NCBI RefSeq assembly: GCF_030849025.1
Contig: NZ_CP118224.1
Span: 480,001 to 544,000, forward strand
From: Oceanimonas pelagia
Lineage (GTDB): Bacteria; Pseudomonadota; Gammaproteobacteria; Enterobacterales; Aeromonadaceae
Direction of reading: 5' to 3'
DNA length: 64,000 nucleotides
Shown here: positions 16,506 through 36,603 of the stretch, one piece after another
Position numbering within the stretch: the first letter of the stretch is position 1
How the letters are laid out: each line of letters begins with the position of its first letter
Translations under genes and position numbers: made by a program
The notes under the pieces: model-generated
Databases searched by the model: none
Told to the model about the DNA's origin: nothing
The model's input: only the letters and a program-made list of their open reading frames with translations

Positions 16506-16595
16506 CCGGAACGGTGAACTGCCCGGAATGAATCCGTTATGCTAGGATGCGGTGTCTGTACCGGCTTGGCGGGGCCTGAATGGCTTTTATCGAGA

Positions 16596-19267: not shown

Positions 19268-19618
19268 TCAGGGCATGGGGATCTGCTCCTCGTCGCTGTT
19301 ATCGTCACCGAGCAGCTCCAGCCGGTGTTGCCGCCTCAGGCCCTGGCGGGACAGCAGTTTCTGCTGGGCCATGGGGGGCAGGTCGGTAAACTGGATCAGG
19401 TTTTTGTCGATCAGTACATCAATCAGATCCTCCAGTACCCGCACCAGCGCCAGGTCCGAGGCTTGCAGCGTGTCCAGATCTGTTTCGTGTGATTCCTCTC
19501 CGGCGCCAATAAACTGCCGCAATTCTGGCGAGTCGGCAGATATTTTTTCATGGATCTCTGCCGTCGGCTCCAGGCTGACGGCGCAAACCCGTCCCGCGGC
19601 GTTGCGTTTGACAAACAT
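19268..19618 (-). CDS. Small conserved protein of unknown function, end of secretion operon
   Basis: This 116-residue acidic protein begins MFVKRNAAGRVCAVSLEP and has a helical central part (DLALVRVLEDLIDVLIDKNLI) and a Lys/Arg-containing tail ending in Asp/Glu. No signal peptide or membrane segment is seen. Its start overlaps the stop of the LuxR-type regulator by 1 nt (TGATG), so it is last in the lapE-lapB-lapC-regulator operon. From memory, similar short proteins are sometimes labelled tryptophan-synthase-beta-like, but nothing here supports that activity. A role with the regulator or secretion system is inference. Confidence 0.65.
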   Translation of the reverse strand: MFVKRNAAGRVCAVSLEPTAEIHEKISADSPELRQFIGAGEESHETDLDTLQASDLALVRVLEDLIDVLIDKNLIQFTDLPPMAQQKLLSRQGLRRQHRLELLGDDNSDEEQIPMP

Positions 19619-20235
19619 CAGCTCTGCTCCTGTCCGTGAGCCAGCAGCATCAGATGCATGCGATCCCGGGCGCCGAGCTTTTCAAAGACCGAACTCAGGT
19701 GCGCCTTGACGGTTCGTTCGGTGATATTCAGCGTGAGGGCAATGCGTTTGTTGCTGGCGCCGCTGAGCACCTCTGCCATGACCTGGCGTTCCCGGTTGGT
19801 CAGCAGGCTCAGATCGTAACCATTCGGTCGGGCAGCGGGCGGAGTTTGTGCCAGCAGTGGCGAGAGCAGTCCGACCATGCGATTAACCAGCTCGGCCGGC
19901 AGCCACATGCCGCCGGCCCTGGTGGTGGCGGCGGCCTGAGTCAGGATGGCGGTGCTGGACATGGCCTCCAGATAGCCTCTGGCACCGGCCGTGAGCGCCC
20001 GGCGCAGCTCATCCAGTTGTGGACGGCGGGTCAGTGCCAGGACGGTTCGTCCCCGGGCTGACTGCCGGCGAATAAGCTGCTCCCAGCCGGGCTGGCCGGT
20101 CAGCACCCAAACCAGTCCATCGTGGTCAGTGTCGGTATTATCCTGTCCGGCTATGGCCAGAGTGGCCTCAGGAAAAGCCCGCCGCCAGCGGGGGCTGCTG
20201 AAATCCTTTTCGGTTATGAACAAAGTATTTGTCAT
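19618..20235 (-). CDS. LuxR/NarL-type regulator with degenerate receiver
   Basis: This 205-residue protein has a C-terminal LuxR helix-turn-helix (LTNRERQVMAEVLSGASNKRIA...ITERTVKAHLSSVFEKLG). The N-terminal 120 residues have receiver-like spacing, but where a phospho-accepting Asp is expected the strand reads GLVWVLTGQPG, so phosphorylation is unlikely. Unphosphorylated regulators of this kind (VpsT and CsgD) control biofilm matrix genes, which fits its place in the adhesin-secretion operon. It overlaps lapC by 4 nt and the next small gene by 1 nt. A c-di-GMP-responsive role is inference. Confidence 0.8.
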   Translation of the reverse strand: MTNTLFITEKDFSSPRWRRAFPEATLAIAGQDNTDTDHDGLVWVLTGQPGWEQLIRRQSARGRTVLALTRRPQLDELRRALTAGARGYLEAMSSTAILTQAAATTRAGGMWLPAELVNRMVGLLSPLLAQTPPAARPNGYDLSLLTNRERQVMAEVLSGASNKRIALTLNITERTVKAHLSSVFEKLGARDRMHLMLLAHGQEQS

Positions 20236-21548
20236 CGCTCGGTCATCGCTAGTGAAGTGGCTCGCAGGACGGGCTTGAGCAGGTACTCAAGCACGGTTTT
20301 CTTGCCGGTCAGAATATCAACTTCGGTGACCATGCCCGGAATGATCTCGAGATCCCGGGCAAAGCCGCTGCGGTGGGTGGCCAGTCGGACCCGATAATAA
20401 CTGTTGCCGTCGCCATCGTTGATGGTGTCGGCACTGATGTGCCTGACTTCGGCCTCCAGGCCGCCGTATATGGCAAAGTCGTAGGCGGTAAACTTGATCA
20501 TGGCGCTTTGCCCGGGCCGAATAAAGGCAATATCCCTGGGCTGGATTCGAGCTTCAATGATCAGCTCGTCATCCAGCGGAATGAGCTCGGCCACTTCGCG
20601 GCCGGGAGCCACCACACCGCCCACGGTGTTGGCAAACAAACGCTGAATGGTGCCGCGCACCGGTGCCCGGATTTCGGTCTGCTGTACCCGGTCTGCCAGG
20701 GCCGATTCGGCTTCGCTCAGGGCATCGAGCCGGGCTTTGGCTTCCAGATATTCCCGTCGCCAGCGGTTGGTGACGGTGAGCTCCACTTCCCGCAGCTTGT
20801 TGCGCGCCTCCTCAATGGCGGCCTGGCTGCGGCTGATGGCGGCCCGGGCCCGCTCGGCCTCTCCTTGAGCCCGGCTGATCTCCCGCTCAATGCGCAATAT
20901 GTCCACATCGGATACGGCGCCCAGCTCCAGTAACGGTCGGGTGACCCTCAGTTCTTTTCGGCTGAGTGCCAGCGACTGGGTGTGTTGCTTGAGATCGGCC
21001 TGCGCTTCCACCAGATCCTGTTGTCGCTGGCTGAGCTGATGATTGTAAATGGCCAGTTGCTCTTGCAGCTCTTCCTGGCTGGCCCGATACAGGCGTTGTT
21101 CCCTGCTGACCAGATCGGGCGCCTGCCGGCGCAGCGCATCGGTAAAGACCGGCTCGGTATTGTCGAGCAGGGCCTGCAGCCGGGCGACCTCGGCACTGGC
21201 GGAAAGATATTGTACCTGGCTTTCCTTCAGGCTGGACACGGAGCGGGTCGGATCGATGCGCAGCAGCACCTCGCCGGCTTCCACCGTTTGTCCTTCCTTT
21301 ACCAGTATCTGCTGTACCATGCCGCCGTCCAGGGACTGCACCACCTGCAACTGCCGGGAAGGAATGACCCGGCCTTCACCCCGGGTGACCTCATCCAGGG
21401 AGGCAAACGCCGACCAGAGCAGCAGGATTGCCAGGATCAGCACCATGCCATACAGCAAAGCGCGGGTGCGTACCGGCTCCTGCTGTAGCCGTGCCCATTG
21501 GGCGTCTCGCGCCCAGTCGCGACCGGTATGCGGCTCATGCTGATTCAT
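20232..21548 (-). CDS. lapC: Type I secretion membrane-fusion protein (LapC/HlyD family)
   Basis: This 438-residue adaptor bridges the inner-membrane ABC exporter and the outer-membrane channel. A short cytoplasmic N-terminus and one TM helix (about 29-49) precede a split biotinyl-lipoyl domain (GRVIPSRQLQVVQSLDGGMV and IRAPVRGTIQRLFANTVGGVV). Between them lies a long coiled coil (about 110-290, rich in Gln, Glu and Arg), then the beta-barrel and the C-terminal region IIPGMVTEVDILTGKKTVLEYLLKPV typical of HlyD. ATGA overlaps link it to lapB and to the LuxR-type gene. Confidence 0.92.
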   Translation of the reverse strand: MNQHEPHTGRDWARDAQWARLQQEPVRTRALLYGMVLILAILLLWSAFASLDEVTRGEGRVIPSRQLQVVQSLDGGMVQQILVKEGQTVEAGEVLLRIDPTRSVSSLKESQVQYLSASAEVARLQALLDNTEPVFTDALRRQAPDLVSREQRLYRASQEELQEQLAIYNHQLSQRQQDLVEAQADLKQHTQSLALSRKELRVTRPLLELGAVSDVDILRIEREISRAQGEAERARAAISRSQAAIEEARNKLREVELTVTNRWRREYLEAKARLDALSEAESALADRVQQTEIRAPVRGTIQRLFANTVGGVVAPGREVAELIPLDDELIIEARIQPRDIAFIRPGQSAMIKFTAYDFAIYGGLEAEVRHISADTINDGDGNSYYRVRLATHRSGFARDLEIIPGMVTEVDILTGKKTVLEYLLKPVLRATSLAMTER

Positions 21549-23686
21549 GCGGCACTCCCGATTTTACCCTGGCGCAGGGCGTCGAGCACTTCGGCCTTGG
21601 GGCCGTTGGCGACGATTCGGCCACCGTCGATCACGATAATGCGGTCCACCAGGCTCAGCAGCGAGCTGCGGTGGGTGACCAGCACCATGGTCCGCCCCTG
21701 GGCGCAGTGCTGCAGGGTGTGCTTGATCTGTTCCTCATTGCGCTGATCCAGTGCACCGGTGGGCTCGTCCAGCAGCAGCACCGGAGACTCCTTGAGCAGG
21801 GCGCGGGCAATGGCCACGGCCTGGCGCTGGCCACCGGACAGCAACTGACCACGTTCGCCTACCGGCATGTCAAAACCGGAGGGGTGAGTGTTGACAAACT
21901 CCGCCAGGCCGCTTTGCTCGGCGGCATGGACGATACGGGCATCGTCAACATGACCCATGCCCAGCACCAGATTGTCGCGCAGGCTGCCGTAGAACAACGA
22001 TACGTCCTGAGGCACATAGCCCATGCCGCGACGCAGCTCGGCCGGGTCGAGCTGGCGAATATCGGTGCCGTCAATCAGAATGCTGCCGGCGTCGGGCTCA
22101 TACAGCCCCAGCATCAGCCGCTCCAGAGTACTCTTACCCGAGCCGTTGCGGCCCAGTATGGCCACGTGCTCACCGGCCTGAATACGAAAACTGATGTCTG
22201 ACAGTGCCTGCTGCTCTGCGTTGGGGTAGGTAAAACTGACATGGCGAAATTCAATGTCGCCCCGTTGAATGGGGCGGCTGACCCGGTGACGATCATCGCT
22301 GCGCTCTAGCGGGCGCGCCATAATTCCGTTCAGGCTGTTCATGGCGGTGACCGCATGATGATACTGGGACAGCAAGGCGGCGGCCTGGCCGACGGGGCTC
22401 ATGGCCCGGGAGGACAGCAGATAGCAGGCAATCAGTCCCCCTTGCGTGAGCTGGCCGTCACGGATCAGGTAAACCCCGAGAATAATCAGGCTGACCGCCA
22501 CCACATGCTGGGCCCAGAGTGCGCCATTGGTGACGGAAGAGGCCAGCAGCCGCATGCGGGCGGTGAGGGTTGACAGATACAGAATGGCGCTTTCCCAGTT
22601 ACCTTGTATCTTGCTTTCGGCCCCCGTGGTTTTGATGGTTTCCAGATTGCCGAGGCACTCGATGAGGGTAGCATTGCGCATGGCGCTGGCGCGGTTCATG
22701 GTGTCGGACAGGTGGCGCATTTTACGCTGGGCCAGGGCGGCGTAGCAGAGTACCGCCAGAGCGCCAATGATGATGGGAATGACCAGCTTTACATTGATCA
22801 GCCCGATGATCAGGCAAAACAGCAGCATAAAGGGCAAATCCACCAGCGCCACCAGGGTGACCGAGCCAATAAAGCTGCGCAACGACTCAAAGGACTGAAC
22901 ATTGCTGGCAAAGGAGCCCGCCGAAGCCGGACGCTCCGACAATTTCATGCCCAGAATTTGTTCCATGATGGCGGCTGACAGCCTGACATCGGCCCGGCTG
23001 GCACCAAGATCGACAAACCAGCCACGCATCAGGCGTAGCCCCAGATCGGCACACAGTACCACCAGTACGCCCACTGCGAGCACCCAGAGGGTGTGGGTGG
23101 CATGATTGGGAACCACCCGGTCGTAGATATTCATGACAAACAACGGCATGGCCACCGCCAGCAGGTTGATCATCACGGCGGCAAACAGAATATCCCGGTA
23201 CAGGGGACGGTTCCTGGCGATGACGCTCCAGAACCAGTGCCCCTGCGCTCGGCGCCGGCTGCCGGGAGCCCGTTCGTCAAAATGAAACTCGGGCTGGGCA
23301 TAAATGAGGTGGCCCGTGTAACGTTGCTCGAGTTCATTGAGCGTTACCGTGACCTCGGCATCGGCCAGCTCCGGCCAGATCACCTGCGCCGTTTGCGGTT
23401 CGGTTCCAAGGGCGGTGATCACGCAGGCGTGATTGTTATCGAGCAGCAGTACGGCTGGCAGCAAGGACGGATTAAGGTGCCTCAGTTCATGATGCAGCAC
23501 TCGGCTGGCCAGTCCGGCGCGTCTGGCGGCCCGATGAAAGACCGATGGCGTGAGCATGCCATCAACCAGCGGCAAACCGGCCAGGGCGGCATCCCGGGTC
23601 AGCTTGCACTGATGAAGCCGGCACAGGGTCAGCAAGCATTCCAGCAGGGGACCACCAGCTTGTGAGTGGAGAGTATTTTTTTGCAT
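21545..23686 (-). CDS. lapB: Type I secretion ABC exporter (LapB-like)
   Basis: This 713-residue inner-membrane exporter has an N-terminal C39-like domain without an evident catalytic Cys-His pair (about 1-130), which in this family docks the unfolded substrate. The transmembrane domain follows (about 155-430), then a nucleotide-binding domain with GRNGSGKSTLERL, LSGGQRQAVAIARALL and VLLLDEPTGALD. The ATG at 23686 follows a GGAAG element and is preferred to a start at 23713. Its expected cargo is the LapA-like protein encoded divergently at 25411. Confidence 0.93.
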   Translation of the reverse strand: MQKNTLHSQAGGPLLECLLTLCRLHQCKLTRDAALAGLPLVDGMLTPSVFHRAARRAGLASRVLHHELRHLNPSLLPAVLLLDNNHACVITALGTEPQTAQVIWPELADAEVTVTLNELEQRYTGHLIYAQPEFHFDERAPGSRRRAQGHWFWSVIARNRPLYRDILFAAVMINLLAVAMPLFVMNIYDRVVPNHATHTLWVLAVGVLVVLCADLGLRLMRGWFVDLGASRADVRLSAAIMEQILGMKLSERPASAGSFASNVQSFESLRSFIGSVTLVALVDLPFMLLFCLIIGLINVKLVIPIIIGALAVLCYAALAQRKMRHLSDTMNRASAMRNATLIECLGNLETIKTTGAESKIQGNWESAILYLSTLTARMRLLASSVTNGALWAQHVVAVSLIILGVYLIRDGQLTQGGLIACYLLSSRAMSPVGQAAALLSQYHHAVTAMNSLNGIMARPLERSDDRHRVSRPIQRGDIEFRHVSFTYPNAEQQALSDISFRIQAGEHVAILGRNGSGKSTLERLMLGLYEPDAGSILIDGTDIRQLDPAELRRGMGYVPQDVSLFYGSLRDNLVLGMGHVDDARIVHAAEQSGLAEFVNTHPSGFDMPVGERGQLLSGGQRQAVAIARALLKESPVLLLDEPTGALDQRNEEQIKHTLQHCAQGRTMVLVTHRSSLLSLVDRIIVIDGGRIVANGPKAEVLDALRQGKIGSAA

Positions 23687-23745
23687 GTTCTGCTTCCGTC
23701 TGCTCCCCGGCACCGGGCCGGGGAGTGCAGTGGACAGGGCTGTCG

Positions 23746-25149
23746 TTACCGGGCCGGTATGTACCGGGCTGCCATGGTGCTGATTTCATCGGCCGGGCAG
23801 GCCGAGTCGGCGTCCACGCTGATGGGTTCCGCACCGAGTTCGCCTAGGGTGGGTAACTCGTCGCTGACCACGTTCAGTGCCGGCAACAGCTGACCCATGG
23901 CATTCAGGGTTCTGGCAATGGCAATACCCCGGTCATAGCTGGCGTTGGTGTAAGCCCGGCTGGCCTGAAAATATTCGTTTTCGGCATCGAGCACGTCCAG
24001 CAGGGTGCGCTCGCTGATGCCGAACTGCCCTTTGTAGGCGGCCCGAACCCGGTTGGATGATATCCGGTGTTGATTCAGAATGGGCAGTTGCTGATCCAGC
24101 TTTTGTACATCGTTATAGGCAATCTGCAGGGTCTGGCGCATGTCGGTGCAGGCCTGAGCCCGTAAATCCCGAGCCTTGTTAAGCTCTTCATGAGCCTTGT
24201 TCAGGCTGGCCTGATCCCGGCCTCCGCGATACAGGTTATAACGCAGGTCAACGCCAATGCGGCCTTCGGTGCGGCGTTCATCGACGTTGCCGTTGACGTA
24301 ATCCTGGGCGCCGTATCTGGCGTTGAGATTGAGCTCCGGATGAAAGGCGGCTTCTTGACTGTCGACGGCGGCATCCTGGGCATTGATATTACGCAGGGCG
24401 GCGTGAAACGCGGGGTTACCCTGATAGGCAAGCTTCATGGCTTCCTGCAGGCTCAATGGCAGTTTGCTGTCGTTCAGCTCCAGTGGCGCCAGTTCGGACG
24501 CAGGCAGTTCGCCGACAATGCGCAAATAGCGGGCACTGACATCATGCAGGTTGGCCATTTCCGTGAGCAGGTTGGACTCGGCCAGCGCTACCCGTCCGTT
24601 GGCTTGTTCAAGATCGGCCCGTCTGGCCACGCCTGCCCGGGCGCTGGTTTCAATTTGCTCATACACGTCAAGGTGGCTGGCGAGGTTGTCCTCTGCCAGT
24701 TTAACCAGTTCCCGATAGCGCATGACATCCTGATAGGCACGCAGAGAGGAGAGGGCGGTGTCTTCAAGCTGTGTCAGCAATTCGAAGTAGCGCACCAGCT
24801 GGGCGTTCTCAAAGCGCTTTACATCGCTGGACGTCTTAAAGCCGTCGTACAGCATTTGCACCAGGGATATTTCTCCTGCTGCACCGCTGAATTCTCTGGG
24901 GTCGTCATAGTTGCGCCATTGCTTGCCATAGCCGGCGGTGGCATCCACCGTGGGCAGATAGCCACCCTTGGCAAAATCGATATCGTATTCGGCGGCACGA
25001 AAGGTGCGCCAGCTGGCCTGCACTTCAGGGTTGGTGGCCAGGGCTTTTTGAACCACCTCGGCCGCGTTGGCTGCCGGTTGCTGTGCCCAGGCAACACTGG
25101 TCAGCAGGCTCAGACCTGCCATTAGTGAATATGATTTTAATCTGTTCAT
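23746..25149 (-). CDS. lapE: TolC-family outer-membrane channel of the type I system (LapE-like)
   Basis: This 467-residue protein has a signal peptide (MNRLKSYSLMAGLSLLTSVAWA, cleaved before QQ). Two repeated OEP domains with long helices follow, including ALATNPEVQASWRTFRAAEYDID, YLPTVDATAGYGKQW, the strand-turn LRYNLYRGGRDQASL, and GQFGISERTLLDVLDAENEYF, a TolC-family signature. The ATG at 25149 is chosen because the signal peptide starts there; the longer frame from 25170 needs a TTG start. It is first in the secretion operon and divergent from the adhesin gene. Confidence 0.92.
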   Translation of the reverse strand: MNRLKSYSLMAGLSLLTSVAWAQQPAANAAEVVQKALATNPEVQASWRTFRAAEYDIDFAKGGYLPTVDATAGYGKQWRNYDDPREFSGAAGEISLVQMLYDGFKTSSDVKRFENAQLVRYFELLTQLEDTALSSLRAYQDVMRYRELVKLAEDNLASHLDVYEQIETSARAGVARRADLEQANGRVALAESNLLTEMANLHDVSARYLRIVGELPASELAPLELNDSKLPLSLQEAMKLAYQGNPAFHAALRNINAQDAAVDSQEAAFHPELNLNARYGAQDYVNGNVDERRTEGRIGVDLRYNLYRGGRDQASLNKAHEELNKARDLRAQACTDMRQTLQIAYNDVQKLDQQLPILNQHRISSNRVRAAYKGQFGISERTLLDVLDAENEYFQASRAYTNASYDRGIAIARTLNAMGQLLPALNVVSDELPTLGELGAEPISVDADSACPADEISTMAARYIPAR

Positions 25150-25410
25150 AGATAAAGGCCTGGTTGGCAAAGGGTGTTTTTTTGAGTGTGCCGTTCCGCC
25201 ATGAGGGAGCGGGCATGATTGTTATGTGTCAGAAGGCGCCAGAACACGCAGTGATCTCCATATCGAAAAGTTTACGTCTGGTGACATATCATCCCATATA
25301 AGGGCTCCAAGTAAAAACATCCCCCTGTACTTCAGTCCAATTTTCTTGTGCCGGTCATTGAGGGAAGATGCCATCAATAGAAAATTCACAAGGCAAGGAT
25401 CGAAGAGAGC

Positions 25411-28400
25411 ATGAGTATTCCAATTGCGGTGGTAACGGATATCAGTGGGACTGTGACGGCGCAGGCAGCCGATGGTTCCGTGCGTGAGCTTGTGCCTGGA
25501 GACACTCTTTTCGCCGGTGAGCTGCTGATAACCGGTGACAATGCCCGTGTTGTGCTTGATTACGGTGATGGTGAAACCGTACCACTCGGCAGTAACCAGT
25601 TTCTGCAAATGACACCGAACATGCTGGCATCGGCCGAGCCCAATGCGCAGGAAAATGCGGTTCTTGATCCCAGCGTAGAAGCCGTGCTGGCCGCCCTTGA
25701 GAATGGGGATGATCTGCTGGATGAACTGGAAGCACCTGCTGCGGGCCTGGCCGGTGCGCCAACAGGAGGTGGCAGCTCGATTGTGACACTGACCCGTGTT
25801 GCCGAGATTGTCGATCCCCTTGCATTTGATTTCGATATCGAACCAGTTGATCCCTTTGAAACACTGGTGGGTGCCGGAACCGCTTTTGATGATACGGACG
25901 CCGACGCCGACGCCGATGCGGATGCGGATGCCGACGCGGATGCAGATGCTGACGCGGATGCTGATGCCGATGCCGATGCCGATGCTGACGCGGATGCCGA
26001 TGCTGACGCGGATGCGGATGCAGATGCCGATGCGGATGCAGACGCGGATGCGGATGCGGATGCGGATGCGGATGCCGATGCCGACGCGGATGCCGATGCC
26101 GACGCGGATGCCGATGCCGACGCGGATGCCGACGCTGACGCTGACTCAGATGCCGATGCTGACGCGGATGCGGATGCCGACGCGGATGCAGACGCGGATG
26201 CAGACGCGGATGCAGACGCGGATGCCGACGCCGATGCCGATGCGGACGCAGATGCCGATGCGGATGCAGATGCGGATGCCGATGCCGATGCTGACGCGGA
26301 TGCGGATGCGGACGCCGACGCCGATGCGGATGCCGACGCGGATGCAGATGCTGACGCGGATGCTGATGCCGATGCCGATGCCGATGCTGACGCGGATGCC
26401 GATGCTGACGCGGATGCGGATGCAGATGCCGATGCGGATGCAGACGCTGATGCGGATGCGGATGCGGATGCAGACGCTGATGCGGATGCGGATGCCGACG
26501 CGGATGCCGATGCCGACGCGGATGCCGACGCTGACGCTGACTCAGATGCCGATGCTGACGCGGATGCGGATGCCGACGCTGATGCAGACGCTGACTCAGA
26601 TGCCGATGCGGACGCGGATGCAGATGCTGACTCGGATGCCGATGCCGATGCCGACGCCGACGCCGATGCGGATGCGGATGCAGATGCCGATGCGGATGCC
26701 GATGCCGACGCGGATGCCGATGCGGACGCGGATGCCGATGCGGATGCCGATGCCGATGCGGATGCCGATGCCGATGCGGATGCCGATGCCGATGCGGATG
26801 CCGATGCCGATGCGGATGCCGATGCGGATGCTGATGCCGACGCGGATGCCGATGCCGATGCCGATGCTGACGCGGATGCGGATGCGGATGCGGACGCCGA
26901 CGCTGATGCGGATGCGGATGCCGATGCCGATGCCGATGCTGACGCGGATGCCGATGCCGACGCGGATGCGGATGCGGATGCAGACGCCGATGCCGATGCC
27001 GACGCGGACGCTGACGCGGATGCCGACGCCGACGCCGATGCGGATGCGGATGCCGATGCCGATGCCGACGCGGATGCCGACGCCGATGCCGATGCTGACG
27101 CGGATGCCGATGCTGACGCGGATGCGGATGCAGATGCCGATGCGGATGCAGACGCTGATGCGGATGCGGATGCGGATGCGGATGCAGACGCTGATGCGGA
27201 TGCGGATGCGGATGCCGACGCTGATGCAGACGCTGACTCAGATGCCGATGCGGACGCGGATGCAGATGCTGACTCGGATGCCGATGCCGACGCCGACGCC
27301 GATGCGGATGCGGATGCAGATGCCGATGCGGATGCCGATGCCGACGCGGATGCCGATGCGGACGCGGATGCCGATGCGGATGCCGATGCCGATGCGGATG
27401 CCGATGCGGATGCCGATGCGGATGCCGATGCCGATGCGGATGCCGATGCCGATGCCGATGCCGATGCGGACGCGGATGCCGATGCCGATGCCGACGCGGA
27501 CGCTGACGCCGATGCTGACGCGGATGCGGATGCGGATGCGGACGCCGACGCTGATGCGGATGCGGATGCCGATGCCGATGCCGATGCCGATGCCGATGCC
27601 GATGCCGATGCCGATGCCGATGCCGATGCTGACGCGGATGCCGATGCGGATGCGGACGCCGACGCCGACGCCGATGCGGATGCCGACGCGGATGCTGACG
27701 CGGATGCTGATGCCGATGCCGATGCCGATGCCGACGCGGATGCTGACGCGGATGCTGATGCCGATGCCGATGCCGATGCTGACGCGGATGCAGATGCTGA
27801 CGCGGATGCTGATGCCGATGCCGATGCCGATGCCGATGCTGACGCGGATGCGGATGCGGATGCGGATGCGGATGCAGATGCCGATGCGGATGCAGACGCT
27901 GATGCGGATGCGGATGCAGACGCTGATGCGGATGCGGATGCGGATGCCGACGCGGATGCCGATGCCGACGCGGATGCCGACGCTGACGCTGACTCAGATG
28001 CCGATGCTGACGCGGATGCGGATGCCGACGCTGATGCAGACGCTGACTCAGATGCCGATGCGGACGCGGATGCAGATGCTGACTCGGATGCCGATGCCGA
28101 CGCCGACGCCGATGCGGATGCGGATGCAGATGCCGATGCCGATGCGGATGCCGATGCCGACGCGGATGCCGATGCCGATGCGGACGCGGATGCCGATGCG
28201 GATGCCGATGCCGATGCGGATGCCGATGCCGATGCGGATGCCGATGCCGATGCCGATGCCGATGCGGATGCCGATGCCGATGCCGATGCGGATGCCGATG
28301 CCGATGCCGATGCGGATGCCGATGCCGATGCCGACGCGGATGCCGATGCCGATGCCGATGCCGATGCTGACGCGGATGCTGACGCCGATGCTGACGCTGA

Positions 28401-31119
28401 CTCAGATGCCGACGCGGATGCCGATGCTGATGCTGACTCGGATTCTGATGCGGACGCCGATGCCGATGCGGACGCTGATGCCGATGCGGATGCGGATGCG
28501 GATGCCGATGCCGACGCGGATGCCGATGCCGACGCGGATGCCGATGCCGATGCCGACGCGGATGCCGACGCTGACTCAGATGCCGATGCGGACGCGGATG
28601 CAGATGCTGACTCGGATGCCGATGCCGACGCCGATGCGGATGCCGATGCCGATGCCGATGCCGATGCGGATGCCGATGCCGATGCCGATGCGGATGCCGA
28701 TGCCGATGCCGACGCGGATGCCGATGCCGATGCCGATGCCGATGCTGACGCGGATGCTGACGCCGATGCTGACGCTGACTCAGATGCCGACGCGGATGCC
28801 GATGCTGATGCTGACTCGGATTCTGATGCGGACGCCGATGCCGATGCGGACGCTGATGCCGATGCGGATGCGGATGCGGATGCCGATGCCGACGCGGATG
28901 CCGATGCCGACGCGGATGCCGATGCCGATGCCGACGCGGATGCCGACGCTGACTCAGATGCCGATGCGGACGCGGATGCAGATGCTGACTCGGATGCCGA
29001 TGCCGACGCCGATGCGGATGCAGATGCCGATGCAGACGCTGATGCGGATGCAGATGCTGACGCCGACGCGGATGCCGATGCCGATGCCGACGCGGATGCC
29101 GATGCCGATGCCGATGCCGATGCTGACGCGGATGCTGACGCCGATGCCGACGCGGACGCGGACGCTGATGCCGATGCGGATGCCGATGCGGATGCCGATG
29201 CGGATGCAGATGCTGATGCCGATGCGGATGCCGATGCGGATGCAGATGCAGATGCCGATGCGGATGCAGATGCCGATGCAGACGCTGATGCGGATGCGGA
29301 TGCGGATGCGGATGCGGATGCAGATGCTGACGCCGACGCGGATGCCGATGCCGACGCTGACTCGGATTCTGATGCGGACGCTGACTCGGATTCAGATGCG
29401 GATGCCGACGCAGATGCCGATGCCGACGCGGACGCCGACGCGGATGCAGACGCGGACGCCGATGCGGATTCTGATGCTGATGCGGACGCTGACGCCGATG
29501 CGGACGCTGACGCCGATGCTGATGCTGACTCGGATTCTGATGCGGACGCCGATGCCGATGCGGATGCCGATTCGGATCGATCTGATGATGAATCAGATAA
29601 GTCCGACGACGAATCGGACAAGTCCGATGCCGGCAAACCGGGCGATGAATCCGACCAGTCCGACGACGAATCGGACAAGTCCGATGCCGGCAAACCGGGT
29701 GATGAATCCGACCAGTCCGACGACGAGTCGGACAAGTCCGATGCCGGCAAACCGGGTGATGAATCCGACCAGTCCGACGACGAATCGGACAAGTCCGATG
29801 GCAAGCCGGGCGATGAATCCGACCAGTCCGACGACGAGTCGGACAAGTCCGATGGCAAACCGGGCGATGAATCCGACCAGTCCGACGACGAATCGGACAA
29901 GTCCGATGCCGGCAAACCGGGTGATGAGTCCGACCAGTCCGACGACGAGTCGGACAAGTCCGATGCCGGCAAACCGGGCGATGAATCCGACCAGTCCGAC
30001 GACGAATCGGACAAGTCCGATGCCGGCAAACCGGGTGATGAATCCGACCAGTCCGACGACGAGTCGGACAAGTCCGATGCCGGCAAACCGGGTGATGAAT
30101 CCGACCAGTCCGACGACGAATCGGACAAGTCCGATGGCAAGCCGGGCGATGAATCCGACCAGTCCGACGACGAGTCGGACAAGTCCGATGCCGGCAAACC
30201 GGGCGATGAGTCCGACCAGTCCGACGACGAATCGGACAAGTCCGATGCCGGCAAACCGGGTGATGAGTCCGACCAGTCCGACGACGAATCGGACAAGTCC
30301 GATGGCAACCCGGGCGATGAGTCCGACCAGTCCGACGACGAATCGGACAAGTCCGATGGCAAACCGGGCGATGAATCCGACCAGTCCGACGACGAATCGG
30401 ACAAGTCCGATGCCGGCAAACCGGGTGATGAGTCCGACCAGTCCGACGACGAATCGGACAAGTCCGATGGCAAACCGGGCGATGAGTCCGACCAGTCCGA
30501 CGATGAATCGGACAAGTCCGATGCTGGATCGAATAGATCCGATGATTCGGATAAATCTGATGACGTATCAGATGGCGAAAGTAATTCCAGCAAGAAGGAT
30601 TTTTCTGGTGAGGGTAACTCTGATACTGAAAACAGCCCCAGTCACGTAAAAGACGACTCTAAAGGCAGCCAGGGTAAGGGATCCCAAGGCAATAACGGGC
30701 ATGGTAATGGCGATCAGGATGCGCCAGGTAACTCAGCCGGTAACACCAACGCCGAGAACAGCCAGAATTCGGGCCTGGGCAACAGTGGTAAGGGGGGCGG
30801 CAAGGACAAGGCATTGAGTCTTTTCTCGGATGGGGAAGATGAGCTGGTGCCCATGCCCTCGAGCCAGGGCCCGGCACAAAAATCTGCTTCGGGCAGCTCT
30901 GGTGAGAGCAAAGGCAAAGCGCTGGATATGGGCAGCCTGCTGTCAGACGATAACAATGACCTCGGCTTGGGCGACTCCGGCGTTTCTCACAAGAAGTCGG
31001 CAAATAGTTCGGGTGAGCCCGATTCATACGCAGGAGATGGTTATGGTGAGGCTCTTGAAAGCCCTCAAGCGGAAGACCCGTTTGACCTGTCCAGCAAGCC
31101 GGGAAGTATTGAGCATTAA
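25411..31119 (+). CDS. Giant acidic LapA-like surface protein with Asp-Ala and Ser-Asp repeats
   Basis: This 1902-residue protein starts with a LapA-type retention module (about 1-108, [41 protein letters not shown]). A linker contains PAAG (109-112), which fits the LapG site pattern [TAP]AA[GV]; P. fluorescens LapA is cleaved in a TAAG at nearly the same position. Then come 1227 residues of Asp-Ala (163-1389), 16 Ser/Asp repeats (1407-1704) and a Ser/Gly/Asn-rich tail. I see no adhesive beta-sandwich domains and no RTX nonapeptides near the C-terminus, both usual in LapA proteins. With LapG, LapD and a type I system beside it, it should be a c-di-GMP-controlled anchored stalk or matrix protein, probably binding Ca2+. 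Its Ser residues lie in CK2-type contexts, and a CK2-like kinase is encoded downstream. Confidence 0.85.
25897..29577 (+). repeat. 3.7-kb GAYGCN hexanucleotide tract encoding (Asp-Ala)n
   Basis: A run of 3681 bp is built almost entirely of GAT/GAC followed by GCN. It encodes 1227 residues of alternating Asp and Ala, with Ser replacing Ala 27 times by hand count, always as D-S-D. Third-base variety (GCC, GCG, GCT, GCA; GAT, GAC) shows it is not a simple recent expansion, although large internal duplications exist. Assembly of such a tract from short reads would be unreliable. Confidence 0.97.
28321..29021 (+). repeat. Tandem duplication inside the Asp-Ala tract, 378-bp period
   Basis: Bases 28321-28643 are identical to 28699-29021 when compared row by row (323 bp, offset 378 bp or 126 codons). 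The unit carries both DSD and DSDSD positions. It indicates recent expansion by unequal exchange. A second long similarity links blocks near 26547 and 28002 (offset about 1455 bp). Confidence 0.9.
29629..30522 (+). repeat. 16 tandem Ser/Asp repeats (54 or 57 bp)
   Basis: Sixteen units of [19 protein letters not shown] (19 residues, 10 units) or the same without the leading Ala (18 residues, 6 units) fill exactly 894 bp. One unit has Asn for Lys (GNPGDES). Every unit contains S-D-D-E, a canonical casein kinase 2 site, and two more S-D-D-E occur just upstream. Third-base changes (GAA/GAG, AAA/AAG) separate the copies. Confidence 0.97.
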
Positions 31120-31159: not shown

Positions 31160-31185
31160 GGCCCTCTTATAGAGGGCCTGTTTTT
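31160..31185 (+). terminator. Rho-independent terminator after the adhesin gene
   Basis: GGCCCTCT pairs with AGAGGGCC around a TAT loop, then TGTTTTTG. It lies 40 nt after the adhesin stop and 27 nt before the next start, so the downstream ligase and kinase genes depend on read-through or a promoter I do not see. Confidence 0.85.
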
Positions 31186-31211: not shown

Positions 31212-34200
31212 ATGCTCAATGCATTACTGGAGCAGGCGAACAGTGAGCTGTATCGCCTCTTTGAAGGGAAACCGGTCATCAAGGTTGAAAGTACTGGCTT
31301 GTTAAGTGATGTACATCAACCTGCTTTTCCGGGCGTGGTATTGTTTTTCTCTTTGAGCAACGGGCATGAAAAGGCTAGCGTGATCACCGCTGCCGGAGAT
31401 GACTTTGAAGAAGCCTGGAGCAAAGGCTGCGATAAATGCTGGAAAGCTGGAATAAATAATGACTTACCAACGAAATGGTTGCGGATCGACTGGGTCACCA
31501 GAGTGCAGTCCATGCACCAGAGGGCCCTGCATGATCTGCTGAGAAGAACCAAGAGAAACTACTTTCGTTATGGTCTTTCCTTCTCGAGTGACTTTGGTCA
31601 GGCGTTATTGGAGCAGGAGCTGAATGCCAATGCCATTCTCTATGCCGGTAGTGAGGTACCTCATGCTAGCCTGAATCTGAAAAACCTGGCCGCTTATACC
31701 AAGAAGCGCTTTGGTGAGCCCCTGGTCCTGAATAATGATGCTCCTGCGTATGTGTTTTCTACCCGAGGGCGTTTTTATGCGTGCGACCCGGACCTTGATG
31801 ATTTACCGGGTAGCAGCAAGAGCATTGCACTGGCAGGACCTGGACGTAATGGCGGCCGGCGTCAGCCAGGGCCGCTGAACGCGGAGCAAGTATTCAGCCT
31901 GGTGAATCGCGGTGCTTCCTTTCTTGCCAGTCAGGTACAGCCATCGGGCAGGTTCATTTATGGCTACTTTCCCTGCTTTGGTCGCCGAATTGCCAATTAT
32001 AATGCACTGCGTCACGCCAGTACCACTTATGCCATGCTGGAAGCTTGGGAGCTGACAAAAAGCGATGAGCTGAAGGCCGCCATCGATCGTGCTCTCGAAT
32101 ACCTTGCTAGTGAGCTTATCCATACTTACTCGCTTAACAGCTCACAGCAGGCGGCCTTTCTGGTAGACACCGGTAACGAAATCAAGCTTGGTGGCAACGC
32201 CGTCTGTCTGCTGGCAATGGTAAAGTATACCGAGTTAACCAGTGATGAACGCTATTTGACACTTATGGAGTCATTGGCGGTAGGCATTGAGCTGATGCAA
32301 CACACCGATAGCGGACAGTTTGTACATGTACTGCATGCTGCCGATCTATCCATTAAAGAGCTGTTTCGTATTATTTACTACGATGGTGAAGCCGCGTTTG
32401 GGTTAATGCGGTTGTATGGGTTAACAAAAAACGAGCGCTGGCTGAAGCTGGTTGAGCGTGCTTTTGATTATTTTATTGATAACGAACACTGGCAGGCGCA
32501 TGATCACTGGCTGTCTTACTGTGTCAATGAATTGACGCGTTATCGGCCTAAAGAGAAATACTTCCGCTTTGCCGTACAAAACATTGCCGGCTATCTCGAC
32601 TTTATAAAAAATCGAAGAACCACCTACCCGACGCTGCTTGAACTGAGCATGGCCTTCCATCATACGCTGGGTCGCATCAAGCAGTTGCCTGAGATGCAGC
32701 ATCTTCTTCAAGAACTCGACGAAGAAGAGTTTTATACGGCTTTGCATACCCGGGCCAACTATCTGATGAATGGCTTCTTCTGGCCCGAGTTTGCCATGTA
32801 TTTTGCCGAGCCCAGTATCATCCTGGGCAGCTTTTTTATTCGGCACCACTCATTTCGGGTAAGAATTGATGATGTTGAGCACTATCTTTCGGGTTATGTG
32901 GCTTATTATACATTGCTTAATAGTTATTGTTCAAAATCAGAAGAATACTCCCTTCGTGATGAAACAGGAGTGAACTGGACAGCAGAACGTCTTATAGAAG
33001 CAACCCAAGGTAAATGGTTGACTAAACCAACAGTAATGAAATGGGTTGCTACAGGCTTATGCATCTCTGAGAGTACAATGAGACCTGGTTGTGTGGTAGT
33101 GACTAAAGGTGAGAATGATAAAGCATTTATAAAACACGATAGAGTAAATTTTCTTCCTTTTATACCACAAGCTTTACTAGTCAGTGATGATAGTTTGTTA
33201 GGTGAAACGAAGATTCCCTTGTTTCTGGTTGATAATATAAGACAAGCTGTCATGGATATGGGAGCTTATGCCCGCTCCAAAATAAAGGGGAAGGTGATAG
33301 GCGTAACAGGTAGTGCCGGGAAAACCACCACGGTCGCCATGCTCCAACAGGTATTAAAGCCATGGGGCACTGTTGCTTCAACAGCACATAATGCCAACCT
33401 TCCGTTAGGCATTGCGTGGAACCTGGCCTCGGTGCCCTGGAGTTCCGACTATATCGTGATGGAAATGGCTATCGGTCAGATGCAGCGTAATGCCAGTCTT
33501 GCTCGGCCTCATGTCGCGGTTGTTACCAATATTCAGGCCGCACATCTTGAGTATCACGGCACAACAGAAACGGTTGCCCGTAAAAAATCTCTTATATTTT
33601 CTGCGATGCCTTTTGGTGGCGTTGCTGTGATTAACCGGGATATGGACGAATGGGATATTGTAGAGGGGGCTGCACAGCATTATGGTATAAGTGTTATTAG
33701 TTTCGGAACACACCCGGAAAGCAACATAAGGCTGGTGAATTTTAAACCTGAAAACAATGAGGTTGTTGCCGAATGTGGCGATGGAATATTACTGTCTTTT
33801 ATACTCGGTGCCCCCGGTAAACACATGGCAATGAATGCTCTTGCATGCCTGGCAGTGATTAAGGGGTTGAAGCTTGATGTAAGACCTGCACTTTCCATGA
33901 TGCCATTATTCAAGGCGGTGAGCGGAAGAGGGGAAATACTGAGGCTTCATTTCAATGGTATACCTTTTTATTTGATTGATGATGCCTATAATGCCAATCC
34001 TTCCTCGATGAAATCGGCAATTGAGATGGCTAACACTGTGAGTTGTGATCCTCGATATGGAAGGAGGATATTTATCCTGGGGGATATGCTTGAGTTGGGT
34101 GTGCAGGCGCAGCAGTACCATTTTGAACTGGCTGCGGAAATAATAAGGAGCTCTCCCGATAAGGTATATCTTGTTGGGGATTATATGAAAGCTGTTTCCG

Positions 34201-34388
34201 AGCGGTTACTTGAGGAAGGTATATCATGTTGCTGGTTTGAACATGCTGGAGCTGTGATGAGTAGCCTGCAACAGGATTTTCAGGAAGGAGACTTGCTATT
34301 GGTAAAATCATCTAACGGTATTCGTTTGTGTGAAGTTGTTAGTGCGCTTAAGAATTTTTCACAGTCTTCTTCATTGAAAGAGCTTTGA
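31212..34388 (+). CDS. Three-part protein with C-terminal MurF-like ligase
   Basis: The protein has 1058 residues. Residues 1-205 match nothing I recognise. Residues about 215-595 are helix-rich and resemble an alpha/alpha-toroid (QVFSLVNRGASFLASQVQPSGRF, LGGNAVCLLAMVKYTEL, YYDGEAAFGLMRLYGL). Residues about 600-1045 are a complete MurF-type ligase: P-loop GVTGSAGKTTT (near 697-707), DDAYNANPSSMKSA (from 923) and RRIFILGDMLELG (near 950-962). MurF joins an amino group to a carboxyl with ATP; the housekeeping enzyme is about 450 residues and is not fused like this. No signal peptide is seen. G+C falls from 62% in the row at 31861 to 30-33% at 32881 and 33181. It lies between the acidic adhesin and the CK2-like kinase, 6 nt before the latter. 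A role in modifying the adhesin or making a surface polymer is inference. Confidence 0.75.
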   Translation: MLNALLEQANSELYRLFEGKPVIKVESTGLLSDVHQPAFPGVVLFFSLSNGHEKASVITAAGDDFEEAWSKGCDKCWKAGINNDLPTKWLRIDWVTRVQSMHQRALHDLLRRTKRNYFRYGLSFSSDFGQALLEQELNANAILYAGSEVPHASLNLKNLAAYTKKRFGEPLVLNNDAPAYVFSTRGRFYACDPDLDDLPGSSKSIALAGPGRNGGRRQPGPLNAEQVFSLVNRGASFLASQVQPSGRFIYGYFPCFGRRIANYNALRHASTTYAMLEAWELTKSDELKAAIDRALEYLASELIHTYSLNSSQQAAFLVDTGNEIKLGGNAVCLLAMVKYTELTSDERYLTLMESLAVGIELMQHTDSGQFVHVLHAADLSIKELFRIIYYDGEAAFGLMRLYGLTKNERWLKLVERAFDYFIDNEHWQAHDHWLSYCVNELTRYRPKEKYFRFAVQNIAGYLDFIKNRRTTYPTLLELSMAFHHTLGRIKQLPEMQHLLQELDEEEFYTALHTRANYLMNGFFWPEFAMYFAEPSIILGSFFIRHHSFRVRIDDVEHYLSGYVAYYTLLNSYCSKSEEYSLRDETGVNWTAERLIEATQGKWLTKPTVMKWVATGLCISESTMRPGCVVVTKGENDKAFIKHDRVNFLPFIPQALLVSDDSLLGETKIPLFLVDNIRQAVMDMGAYARSKIKGKVIGVTGSAGKTTTVAMLQQVLKPWGTVASTAHNANLPLGIAWNLASVPWSSDYIVMEMAIGQMQRNASLARPHVAVVTNIQAAHLEYHGTTETVARKKSLIFSAMPFGGVAVINRDMDEWDIVEGAAQHYGISVISFGTHPESNIRLVNFKPENNEVVAECGDGILLSFILGAPGKHMAMNALACLAVIKGLKLDVRPALSMMPLFKAVSGRGEILRLHFNGIPFYLIDDAYNANPSSMKSAIEMANTVSCDPRYGRRIFILGDMLELGVQAQQYHFELAAEIIRSSPDKVYLVGDYMKAVSERLLEEGISCCWFEHAGAVMSSLQQDFQEGDLLLVKSSNGIRLCEVVSALKNFSQSSSLKEL

Positions 34389-34394
34389 GTCATT

Positions 34395-35396
34395 ATGTAT
34401 AAGAAAGGTGCTGGCAAGAAATCAATATCCAGGAGCTATCAGAATGTTAACTCTTCTGTGAATGAAGCAGAGTGGAATTACAAAGATAAAAAAATCAACT
34501 GGGGTAAGATTGAAGATTATGAATTAGGCAAGAAGCTTGGCGAAGGAACCTTTTCTGAGGCGTTTAAAGGTATGCATAAGAAAACAGAAACCAATGTTAC
34601 TGTGAGGAGGTTGGTAAAAAACAGGGCTGAAAAGATAAAAAGAGAGGTCTCTGTGCTTAAGCGAATAAAGGGAAGTAAAAATAATGCACATATTTTTGAT
34701 GTTGTGAAAGGTGGGGTTGCCAATGAAAAGTATATCATCATGCACTATTATGCGAATGATGGGTTAATAAAAAGAAACACGGAAGTTTCTGAGTTTGACA
34801 TGAAATGCTATATTCTTCAGTTGCTTAATGGGCTTGATGAGGCTCATAGTAGAGGGGTTATGCATAGAGACATTAAACCCTCTAATATTGTTATTAATAA
34901 TAAACGAAAACGCCTGAAAATTATTGACTGGGGAATGGCTGAGTTTTATCACCCTTATAAAGAATACCACCTTAGAGTTAGCTCTCATTACTATAAAGCA
35001 CCTGAGTTGTTGCTTGGTATGAAACAATATGACTACTCTCTGGATATGTGGTCTTTTGCTTGCTTGTTTGCTGGTGTTGTTTGCAATGATTTTCCCTTCA
35101 TGAAAGGGAAAAAGGAAGTTGATTTACTTCGTAACATGTCAGGGTTATTCGGGGAAGGTGAGTTTTGGGATTACATTGAAAAGTATAATATAAATGATGT
35201 GGATAAGGTGAGCCTTGAAGCTATTGCCACTCCCAGAGAAGATAGTAAATTGGCCTTGGCGCAAGCAGAGTCTGTGTTTAAATCAGAGTTGGCTTTGGAT
35301 TTGCTTGCTAAAGTATTGAAGGTAGATCACCAGGAAAGGTTAACGGCAAGAGAAGCTATGGAACATCCTTACTTTGATGAAGTTAGGGATATATAA
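34395..35396 (+). CDS. Casein kinase 2 alpha-like protein kinase
   Basis: This 333-residue cytoplasmic kinase aligns with eukaryotic CK2 alpha along its whole length, including the N-terminal segment (YQNVN...EWNYKDKKINWG...DYELGKKLG). Signatures: G-loop GEGTFSEAF (49-57), alpha-C E84, MHRDIKPSNI (D159, K161, N164), the CK2-specific DWG (178-180) with IIDWGMAEFYHP, YDYSLDMWS (212-220) and DHQERLTAREAMEHPYF (311-327). Of the CK2 residues that read acidic substrates, R194 and K201 are kept and one Arg is H198. The ATP-anchoring Lys is Arg (R71), an ungapped match to CK2 K68, so activity may be weak or unusual. Sampled rows are 28-30% G+C against 65% in the next gene, indicating transfer. The acidic Ser repeats of the adhesin upstream are the obvious candidate substrate. 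Confidence 0.9.
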   Translation: MYKKGAGKKSISRSYQNVNSSVNEAEWNYKDKKINWGKIEDYELGKKLGEGTFSEAFKGMHKKTETNVTVRRLVKNRAEKIKREVSVLKRIKGSKNNAHIFDVVKGGVANEKYIIMHYYANDGLIKRNTEVSEFDMKCYILQLLNGLDEAHSRGVMHRDIKPSNIVINNKRKRLKIIDWGMAEFYHPYKEYHLRVSSHYYKAPELLLGMKQYDYSLDMWSFACLFAGVVCNDFPFMKGKKEVDLLRNMSGLFGEGEFWDYIEKYNINDVDKVSLEAIATPREDSKLALAQAESVFKSELALDLLAKVLKVDHQERLTAREAMEHPYFDEVRDI

Positions 35397-35457: not shown

Positions 35458-36603
35458 ATGAACCCTTTATCCCCCTATTCTGCCTGGCTTTCCGCGCTGG
35501 AATCCGGGTTTGCCGACGATGCCGCCCAGCACCATGCCGTTGAGTGGCTGGAAGGCTGTTATCGCGGTGTGCTGGCGAACGAGCCGGGAGCTCGGGGCGT
35601 GTATTTATGGGGGCCGGTGGGACGGGGAAAAACCTGGCTGATGGACCAGTTTTTCACCAGTCTGCAAGGCGCTGGCGTTCCGGCCCGGCGGCTGCATTTT
35701 CATCATTTTATGCAGCAATTGCACAAGCGGTTGTTTCAGCTCACCGGCACCGAAGATCCGTTACAGGTGCTGGCCCGGGAGCTGAGCGCCGAGATACGGG
35801 TGCTGTGCCTGGACGAGCTGTTTGTGAGCGACATTGGCGATGCCATGTTGCTGGGTCGGCTGCTGCGCCACCTGTTTGAGCAGGGGCTGGTATTGCTGAT
35901 GACCTCCAATCAGTCGCCTGAAAGCCTGTATGAAGATGGTTTTAACCGGGAGCAGTTTTTGCCCGCGGTGGCCGCCATCACCCGGCATATGCGCGTGGTG
36001 CCGGTGCAGGGTGAGCAGGATCACCGCCTTCATCCGGGCCGGCTGCATCAGCGTTATTGGGTGAATGAGCCCGAAGCCCTTGCCACTCTGTTTGAGCAAC
36101 TGACCGGTACCGCCAAGAACACCGAGCCACTCACGCTGGGTAACCGGCTTATCCCCGTGCTGGGGCGCAATAAGCGGGTGCTCTGGTGCCGTTATGCCGA
36201 GCTGTGCGAGCAGCCCCTGGCGGCCCAGGACTTTATTGCCTTGTGTGATCGGTTTGACCACGTGTTGCTGAGTGAGCTGCCCCGGCTCAGCTGTAACAGC
36301 CGGCAAGCCGCCATTGCCCGGGGTACCGAAGACGGTGCTACTCAGGTGGCCGCCGGTGATCGCATTCTGCCGGTGCTGTCGCGTCAGGACGACGGCGTGC
36401 GCCGTTTTATCGCCCTGGTGGATGAATGCTACGACCGCGGCATTCCCCTTTATATTGACGCGGCGGTAGCCATGGATGAACTCTATGCTGACGGTGCGTT
36501 GGTCTTTCCGTTTCGCCGAACCCTGAGCCGGCTGAAGGAAATGCAATTGGTGCGTTTTGGGATGAGTAGTAACGGGGGTATTACCGGTGGGGGAGACCTG
36601 TAA
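35458..36603 (+). CDS. AFG1/ZapE-family ATPase
   Basis: This 381-residue AAA-type ATPase has Walker A GPVGRGKTW (about 53-61), FHHFMQQLHKRL, Walker B VLCLDELFVSDI, sensor region LLMTSNQSPESLY and DGFNREQFLPAV, all typical of the family whose E. coli member ZapE acts at the division septum. The C-terminal third (HQRYWVNEPEAL onward, with ending RRTLSRLKEMQ) also fits. G+C returns to about 65%, so the foreign segment ends before it. I leave the symbol blank because another family member may exist elsewhere in the genome. Confidence 0.85.
   Translation: MNPLSPYSAWLSALESGFADDAAQHHAVEWLEGCYRGVLANEPGARGVYLWGPVGRGKTWLMDQFFTSLQGAGVPARRLHFHHFMQQLHKRLFQLTGTEDPLQVLARELSAEIRVLCLDELFVSDIGDAMLLGRLLRHLFEQGLVLLMTSNQSPESLYEDGFNREQFLPAVAAITRHMRVVPVQGEQDHRLHPGRLHQRYWVNEPEALATLFEQLTGTAKNTEPLTLGNRLIPVLGRNKRVLWCRYAELCEQPLAAQDFIALCDRFDHVLLSELPRLSCNSRQAAIARGTEDGATQVAAGDRILPVLSRQDDGVRRFIALVDECYDRGIPLYIDAAVAMDELYADGALVFPFRRTLSRLKEMQLVRFGMSSNGGITGGGDL

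Follow-up and report, generated by a model that had tools for sequence, protein, structure and literature searches.

By sequence comparison, we confirm that the chromosome of Oceanimonas pelagia encodes a full-length homologue of CK2α, and we find its gene to be the last of a Lap-type adhesin locus. To our knowledge, CK2 is regarded as a eukaryotic kinase; among the matches listed in the open-access literature (titles and openings of abstracts), there was no bacterial CK2 member. As its most likely role, at roughly even chances, we propose that this eukaryote-derived CK2-family kinase phosphorylates serines in the Ser-Asp/Glu repeats of the adhesin. In a few marine bacteria, the gene of this kinase thus lies next to that of a giant acidic surface adhesin with repeats resembling CK2 targets, and the adhesin, a bacterial glue protein, may be decorated by an enzyme borrowed from eukaryotes. 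The window, i.e., the whole 64,000-nucleotide stretch analyzed, covers positions 480001-544000 of one 3.59-Mb contig (99.98% complete) and contains the following features, in window coordinates:

16539-17294, forward strand: LapG-like periplasmic protease (Peptidase_C93, 2e-9)
17335-19260, forward strand: LapD-like c-di-GMP receptor (LapD_MoxY_N, 9e-38; GGDEF; EAL)
19618-20235, reverse strand: LuxR-family regulator (GerE, 5e-19)
20232-21548, reverse strand: LapC-like membrane-fusion protein (HlyD_3, 1e-20)
21545-23713, reverse strand: LapB-like ABC exporter (ABC_tran, 4e-35; ABC_membrane, 7e-19)
23746-25170, reverse strand: LapE-like outer-membrane channel (PF02321, 6e-49)
25411-31119, forward strand: LapA-type adhesin, the proposed substrate (NF033682 retention module, 5e-32, 111 bits against a cut-off of 50)
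29572-30582, forward strand: Ser-Asp/Glu-rich repeat segment of the adhesin, residues 1388-1724 (16 copies of a 14-residue unit)
31160-31178, forward strand: terminator-like hairpin separating the adhesin gene from the fusion/kinase pair (consensus match only)
31212-34388, forward strand: fusion of a glycosidase/epimerase-like part with a MurF-like Mur ligase (Mur_ligase_M, 5e-36; Mur_ligase_C, 5e-13)
34395-35396, forward strand: CK2α-like protein kinase gene (phmmer, 3e-83; PF00069, 1.1e-53; trees)
35458-36603, forward strand: zapE, the downstream chromosomal neighbor, outside the module (NF040713, 4e-111)

Assignment of the Kinase to the CK2 Family

The kinase ORF begins with ATG and encodes 333 amino acids. 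In a phmmer comparison with PDB sequences, the top match was CK2α (6ise, E = 3e-83), with kinase residues 7-332 aligned to 6ise residues 3-328, and the best 60 of the 2245 sequence matches were all CK2 catalytic subunits; PF00069 covers the entire domain. The kinase core scores 196-254 bits against five CK2 sequences, compared with 109 for CDK2, 98 for ERK2, 74 for GSK3B, and 57 for DYRK1A among other CMGC kinases and 23-67 for 15 bacterial Hanks kinases. The four Oceanimonas copies (in the window, O. smirnovii, O. baumannii, and O. sp. CHS3-5) are 35-41% identical to three eukaryotic CK2α sequences over 318-326 positions, the window copy being 39% identical, and the three eukaryotic sequences are 70-80% identical to one another. 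The extent of the alignment and this identity bear out the original prediction of a full-length CK2α homologue. The CK2 motifs that it had named, together with the N-terminal segment, were likewise all found in the alignment of the window kinase: the N-terminal YQNVN...WNY...WG, DWG, AEFYHP, YDYSLDMWS, and DHQERLTAREAMEHPYF. The CK2-type N-terminal segment is present by alignment, and DWG replaces DFG, in 4/4 copies. No match to PF01214, the CK2β partner, was found in the window genome, and the control genomes were equally without one. An AlphaFold model of the kinase, built from three sequences, had a mean pLDDT of 39 and was set aside.

Phylogenetic Placement

To place the kinase, we computed three trees, of 26, 20, and 28 rows, the second of which differs from the first by an added yeast and a second human sequence and by fewer Hanks rows. 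The Oceanimonas kinase joins CK2 with support of 100/100, 98/96, and 100/99, respectively, and none of the three trees places the bacterial Hanks kinases within the CK2 group. The eukaryotic CK2s (3, 5, and 5 rows) form a separate group in each tree (99/98, 81/94, and 93/98), and the bacterial branch is therefore sister to the sampled CK2s. The expectation that it would branch inside CK2 thus held for the grouping with CK2, and for "inside" only as this sister position. Placement with other CMGC or Hanks kinases, named beforehand as the result that would speak against CK2, was not obtained in any of the three trees. An AU test of the arrangement with Oceanimonas outside all eukaryotic CMGC kinases gave p = 0.156 with the 20-row tree and 0.041 with the 28-row tree; the trees by themselves therefore do not firmly reject this arrangement. 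The trees hold few CK2 and CMGC rows, with the CK2 N-terminal segment left out and without broad protist CK2. On this modest tree signal, alongside the shared CK2 N-terminal segment, the DWG motif, and the bit scores, the kinase groups with CK2 and not with the other sampled CMGC or Hanks kinases.

Active Site, Specificity Residues, and Selection

The residues Glu81, Asp156, Lys158, Asn161, and Asp175-Trp176-Gly177 (CK2 numbering) are kept in all four copies. In the window and O. smirnovii kinases, Arg replaces the VAIK lysine (Lys68 of CK2), which is retained in those of O. baumannii and CHS3-5. Because of this Arg, the window protein is classed by descent, as a CK2-family homologue, and not as a proven CK2 enzyme; both Arg68 kinases may be weak or inactive owing to the substitution. 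Arg80, the P+3 site of CK2 (PMC9608649, in excerpt), is kept in every copy. Arg191 and Lys198, residues of the P+1 loop (PMC9014129, in excerpt), are kept in the three intact copies and are replaced by Thr and Arg, respectively, in the broken CHS3-5 copy. All four copies have His or Tyr in place of the P+1 residue Arg195, the Lys74-76 cluster is mostly lost, Lys83 is Ser, and the hinge and gatekeeper residues of the Oceanimonas kinases differ from those of CK2α.

Differences per codon position amount to 0.21/0.13/0.50 between the window and O. smirnovii kinases, 0.23/0.20/0.51 between those of the window and O. baumannii, and 0.27/0.21/0.55 between those of O. smirnovii and O. baumannii. The NG86 values of dS for these three intact copies were 3.3, 3.6, or undefined and are therefore taken merely as "saturated". 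Codon comparison indicates that the three intact copies are under purifying selection, and the Arg68 proteins therefore probably retain some role.

Distribution and Origin of the Gene

We scanned one genome per species across 84,980 species using six exact 8-residue patterns, which, being exact, reach close relatives only, and recovered three further kinase loci, all in Oceanimonas. Their products are 73% (O. smirnovii), 65% (O. baumannii), and 70% (CHS3-5, best segment) identical to the window kinase, and mutual identity among the four copies is 61-73%, i.e., 27-39% of residues differ. In all three relatives the kinase lies between the Mur-ligase fusion gene and the zapE orthologue, as in the window. 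The CHS3-5 gene (locus L006, 9001-10009) carries a frameshift near the activation loop that splits it into ORFs of 188 and 159 aa; this could reflect either recent decay into a pseudogene or an error in sequencing.

The kinase is present in 4 of the 23 genomes of the genus. Across the family, 26 of 75 genomes gave some match at E 0.001, the best outside the four scoring 37.6 bits. At E 1e-15, a sample of 369 genomes of the class yielded, besides the window's own, eight genomes that matched partially, at 59-70 bits, and a sample of 398 genomes of the phylum gave no match apart from the window's own. There was no further CK2-grade match in the samples searched, with other bacterial phyla covered by the pattern scan alone. 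A viral origin was considered and rejected: two scans of viral contigs found no relative of the kinase, and none of the matches in plasmids (175 records) and phages (25 records) spanned 80% of the query.

The G+C content of the kinase gene is 37.3% (37.5% at third positions), compared with 60.3% (69%) for zapE, in agreement with the low G+C relative to the next gene noted in the original prediction. This low G+C might point to contamination or an assembly artifact, which the prediction had raised as an objection; that explanation is refuted by the sharing of the locus with three other Oceanimonas assemblies, in which the gene has the same neighbors, and by its position within a single 3.59-Mb contig, and we regard its probability as practically negligible.

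The composition had also been read as a recent transfer from an AT-rich source, perhaps a protist, and neither part of that reading is supported. Against a recent transfer stands the divergence of the kinase, which four species share at 61-73% identity and in which synonymous change is saturated among the three intact copies; kinase residues differ by the 27-39% given above, compared with 15-22% for zapE among the same four species. Nor can composition point to a protist donor, because the C-terminal half of the adjoining bacterial-type Mur-ligase fusion gene has a comparably low G+C: at third positions, it is 0.38-0.41 in the window and lower still, 0.22-0.32, in O. smirnovii; O. baumannii (0.44-0.48) and CHS3-5 (0.54-0.62) are less AT-rich there, and the kinase-less genome G042 has 0.73-0.85. 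Since CK2 branches within a group of eukaryotic kinases, what can be argued is transfer from a eukaryote to a bacterium, not a recent one. The best reading is that CK2 would have entered an Oceanimonas ancestor from a eukaryote before these species split; no donor lineage could be identified among the sequences compared.

The Lap-Type Locus and the Mur-Ligase Fusion

The retention module and the homologues of LapB, LapC, LapE, LapD, and LapG beside the adhesin are all present in the window. The fusion stop codon and the kinase start are six bases apart in the window, and in O. baumannii the two ORFs overlap. Terminator-like sites, of which the hairpin upstream of the fusion gene is one, numbered 7, and shuffled sequences gave 4.7 (sd 2.4). 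In O. baumannii, the last 538 aa of the adhesin, searched for RTX repeats or a type I secretion signal, had no Pfam match.

Residues 201-580 of the fusion were modeled from four sequences, yielding a nearly all-helical structure with a mean pLDDT of 62. Foldseek searches with this N-domain model returned GH88/GH76-type enzymes as the best matches (E 1e-4, TM about 0.5), and on this model the N-domain appears to resemble (α/α)-barrel glycosidase/epimerase-type enzymes; a PDB profile search by sequence returned nothing useful for it. A comparison of fusions (window 31212-34388; L005 4181-8992; L006 4177-8991) distinguishes two forms, one of 1603-1604 aa with a CapA/PgsA domain (O. baumannii and CHS3-5) and one of 1058-1063 aa without it (window and O. 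smirnovii). Arg68 in the kinase coincides with the latter form.

Within the genus, 5 of the 23 genomes encode the fusion N-domain. A search of 369 class genomes at E 0.001 matched 7, among them that of the window, and most of the other matches were distant; in a second family, 7 of 121 genomes matched at E 1e-30. In four genomes of this second family (G439, G871, G926, and G910), the fusion accompanies LapE-LapB-LapC, a LuxR gene, and an (Asp-Ala)n adhesin, and two other genes occupy the kinase's place. An (Asp-Ala)n retention-module adhesin lies beside the fusion in nine loci of two families (window, L004, L005, L006, L032, L043, L120, L121, and L122), which makes the Asp side chains of the (Asp-Ala)n tract a possible target of the Mur ligase. 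Because fusion and adhesin are also paired in second-family loci without the kinase, the partnership of the fusion with the (Asp-Ala)n adhesin appears to predate the kinase, which would have been added later in Oceanimonas; the Ser-rich repeats would have come with the kinase or after it.

Several loci without the kinase differ in their gene content. In L043 (3298-6161), L120, L121, and L122, the fusion is followed by a HEXXH-containing protein and a probable membrane protein of ~600 aa, the latter 55-68% identical between second-family genomes. We considered this ~600-aa protein of the G439-type loci as kinase-like and rejected the idea, which neither Pfam nor the PDB profile search backed. 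The fusion loci of G823, G857 (two), and G891 (L116-L119) have no (Asp-Ala)n adhesin within 19 kb, and in one of them (L117 7373-13523, G857) the fusion gene faces that of a protein of 844 aa that combines Hanks-type kinase, TPR, and glycosyltransferase-9-like regions.

Adhesin Repeats and Their Association with the Kinase

The window adhesin consists of the retention module, an (Asp-Ala)n tract from ~25897, and then Ser-Asp/Glu/Lys tandem repeats. It contains 54 [ST]xx[DE] sites, which means that, before any phosphorylation, 54 of its 159 Ser/Thr are followed by an acidic residue at P+3. The acidic Ser repeat differs among the kinase-bearing genomes: the 14-residue unit in the window, KSDDDKSDGG in O. 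smirnovii, SDGESDKG in O. baumannii, and SDSDADAD in CHS3-5. The CHS3-5 adhesin is without the Lys/Glu-containing Ser repeats seen in the other three.

To compare adhesins, we counted the maximum number of S-[DE] pairs per 100 aa. The kinase-linked adhesins reach 22 (window), 16 (O. smirnovii, with 200 unread residues), 25 (O. baumannii), and 18 (CHS3-5). The corresponding values for kinase-less (Asp-Ala)n adhesins are 1 in G042 (same genus, read in two frames), 8 in G439 (complete, 3388 aa), 6 in G910 (with unread residues), and 3 and 4 in G871 and G926 (both cut at a contig end). A further 25 retention-module proteins of the genus, 9 of them incomplete, reach at most 5, and none of the 25 has an (Asp-Ala)n tract. 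Dense Ser-Asp/Glu repeats, partly CK2-type sites, go with the presence of the kinase. This is an association and not a test, because the measure was picked after the repeats had been seen and the four adhesins are orthologues, for which reason they do not count as four independent events. Codon variation between repeat copies was discounted as evidence, since the copies had been selected by a motif already requiring Ser.

Proposed Function and Alternative Explanations

In our preferred reading, the kinase would act in the cytoplasm, where ATP is and where the type I substrate is still unfolded; a cytoplasmic location is suggested by its near end-to-end alignment with CK2 without an added secretion domain. 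Type I secretion substrates cross unfolded, so the adhesin repeats should be open to a cytoplasmic kinase before export. Serines in the acidic repeats of the adhesin, encoded two genes upstream, would be phosphorylated at this stage. After export of the resulting polyanion through LapB-LapC-LapE, the retention module would hold it at the outer membrane until LapG, controlled by LapD, released it. Phosphate on the repeats could serve metal binding, surface charge, or protease resistance. The activity of the kinase, the adhesin as its substrate, the action of the Lap parts, and the effect of the phosphate are inferred here. In favor of the reading as a whole are the CK2 similarity, the trees, the kept catalytic residues, Arg80, the Arg191 and Lys198 of the intact copies, the close spacing of the fusion and kinase genes, the Lap flank, the S-[DE] density, purifying selection, and a precedent in staphylococci, where SdgA and SdgB modify the Ser-Asp-repeat adhesins whose genes lie next to theirs (PMC3794999). 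Weighing against phosphorylation of the repeats are Arg68 in two of the four copies, the changes at Arg195, Lys74-76, and Lys83, the CHS3-5 frameshift, the orthology of the adhesins, the post hoc measure, and an acid at P+3 of only 54/159 Ser/Thr. A bolder form of the proposal, possible but doubtful in our estimate, is that a captured CK2 makes the adhesin a phosphorylated surface polyanion while the Mur fusion modifies (Asp-Ala)n, yielding a doubly modified, encoded acidic polymer; we know of no description of a genetically encoded surface polymer of this kind.

In the Arg68 lineage, the protein could instead be a CK2-family pseudokinase that transfers hardly any phosphate, if at all, and works by binding the acidic repeats, and possibly ATP, whether as a chaperone, as a scaffold, or as an allosteric partner of the Mur-ligase fusion. 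The glycine loop, which we take to be the site of a WNK-type replacement lysine, keeps Ser51 and offers no such lysine; the gene in the window and O. smirnovii is nonetheless under purifying selection, and the Arg68 copies are those found with the fusion type lacking CapA. We consider this explanation unlikely, because the remaining catalytic residues tested are kept in both Arg68 copies, where a mere scaffold would not need them, and because O. baumannii and CHS3-5 retain Lys68. Rather unlikely, too, is an active CK2-like kinase with its main substrate elsewhere (LapD, LapG, the Mur-ligase fusion, or a general cytoplasmic protein), the repeats having evolved independently for calcium or surface binding. 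The kinase gene is indeed coupled directly to the fusion gene and not to that of the adhesin, with the terminator-like hairpin between adhesin and fusion, and Ser-Asp repeats elsewhere have a different modifying enzyme (staphylococcal Sdr proteins; PMC3794999, in excerpt); on the other hand, several acidic-site determinants are kept, and high S-[DE] density is found only in the adhesins beside the kinase. The eukaryotic ancestry indicated by the trees also invites comparison with host-directed effectors, since other bacteria use eukaryotic-like proteins in this way (review, PMC7542358). We consider action in or on a eukaryotic partner highly improbable for a protein that aligns with CK2 nearly end to end and has no added secretion domain; its gene adjoins an adhesin locus, and no injection-system part was found among the eight proteins scanned (two of them from locus L043).

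Significance and Comparison with Known Systems

If phosphorylation of the adhesin repeats proves true, a eukaryotic signaling kinase would have been reused to modify a bacterial structural protein, chromosomally in four related species, and would represent a new route to phosphorylated surface polymers. The natural pair of Lys68 and Arg68 enzymes raises the question of how much that lysine matters. Among the matches listed in the open-access literature, no title concerned phosphorylated Lap adhesins or a Mur ligase with such an (Asp-Ala)n adhesin, and we found no phosphorylation data.

The kinase resembles CK2α over its full length, including the N-terminal segment, DWG, FYHP, the C-terminal DHQERLTA, and, with Arg80, the Arg191 and Lys198 of the intact copies; it differs in being bacterial, encoded in an adhesin operon, and only 35-41% identical, with Lys74-76, Arg195, the hinge, and the gatekeeper changed and with Lys68 replaced by Arg in the window and O. 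smirnovii. Bacterial Hanks kinases share the kinase fold, but the 15 sampled score at most 67 bits with the window kinase, compared with 196-254 for CK2. The locus has the retention module, the exporter trio, and the LapD and LapG homologues beside the adhesin that characterize the Lap system (LapA/B/C/D/E/G); unlike that system, it has an adhesin of (Asp-Ala)n and Ser-Asp/Glu repeats and additional genes for a Mur-ligase fusion and a kinase. Dentin phosphophoryn and similar Ser-Asp phosphoproteins likewise present acidic Ser-Asp repeats as kinase targets, although they are proteins of the eukaryotic secretory pathway. The staphylococcal Ser-Asp-repeat adhesins also combine long S-D repeats with modifying enzymes encoded nearby, SdgA and SdgB, whose genes lie beside sdrCDE; there, glycosyltransferases add GlcNAc (PMC3794999), whereas in Oceanimonas a kinase would add a putative phosphate to a Gram-negative type I substrate.
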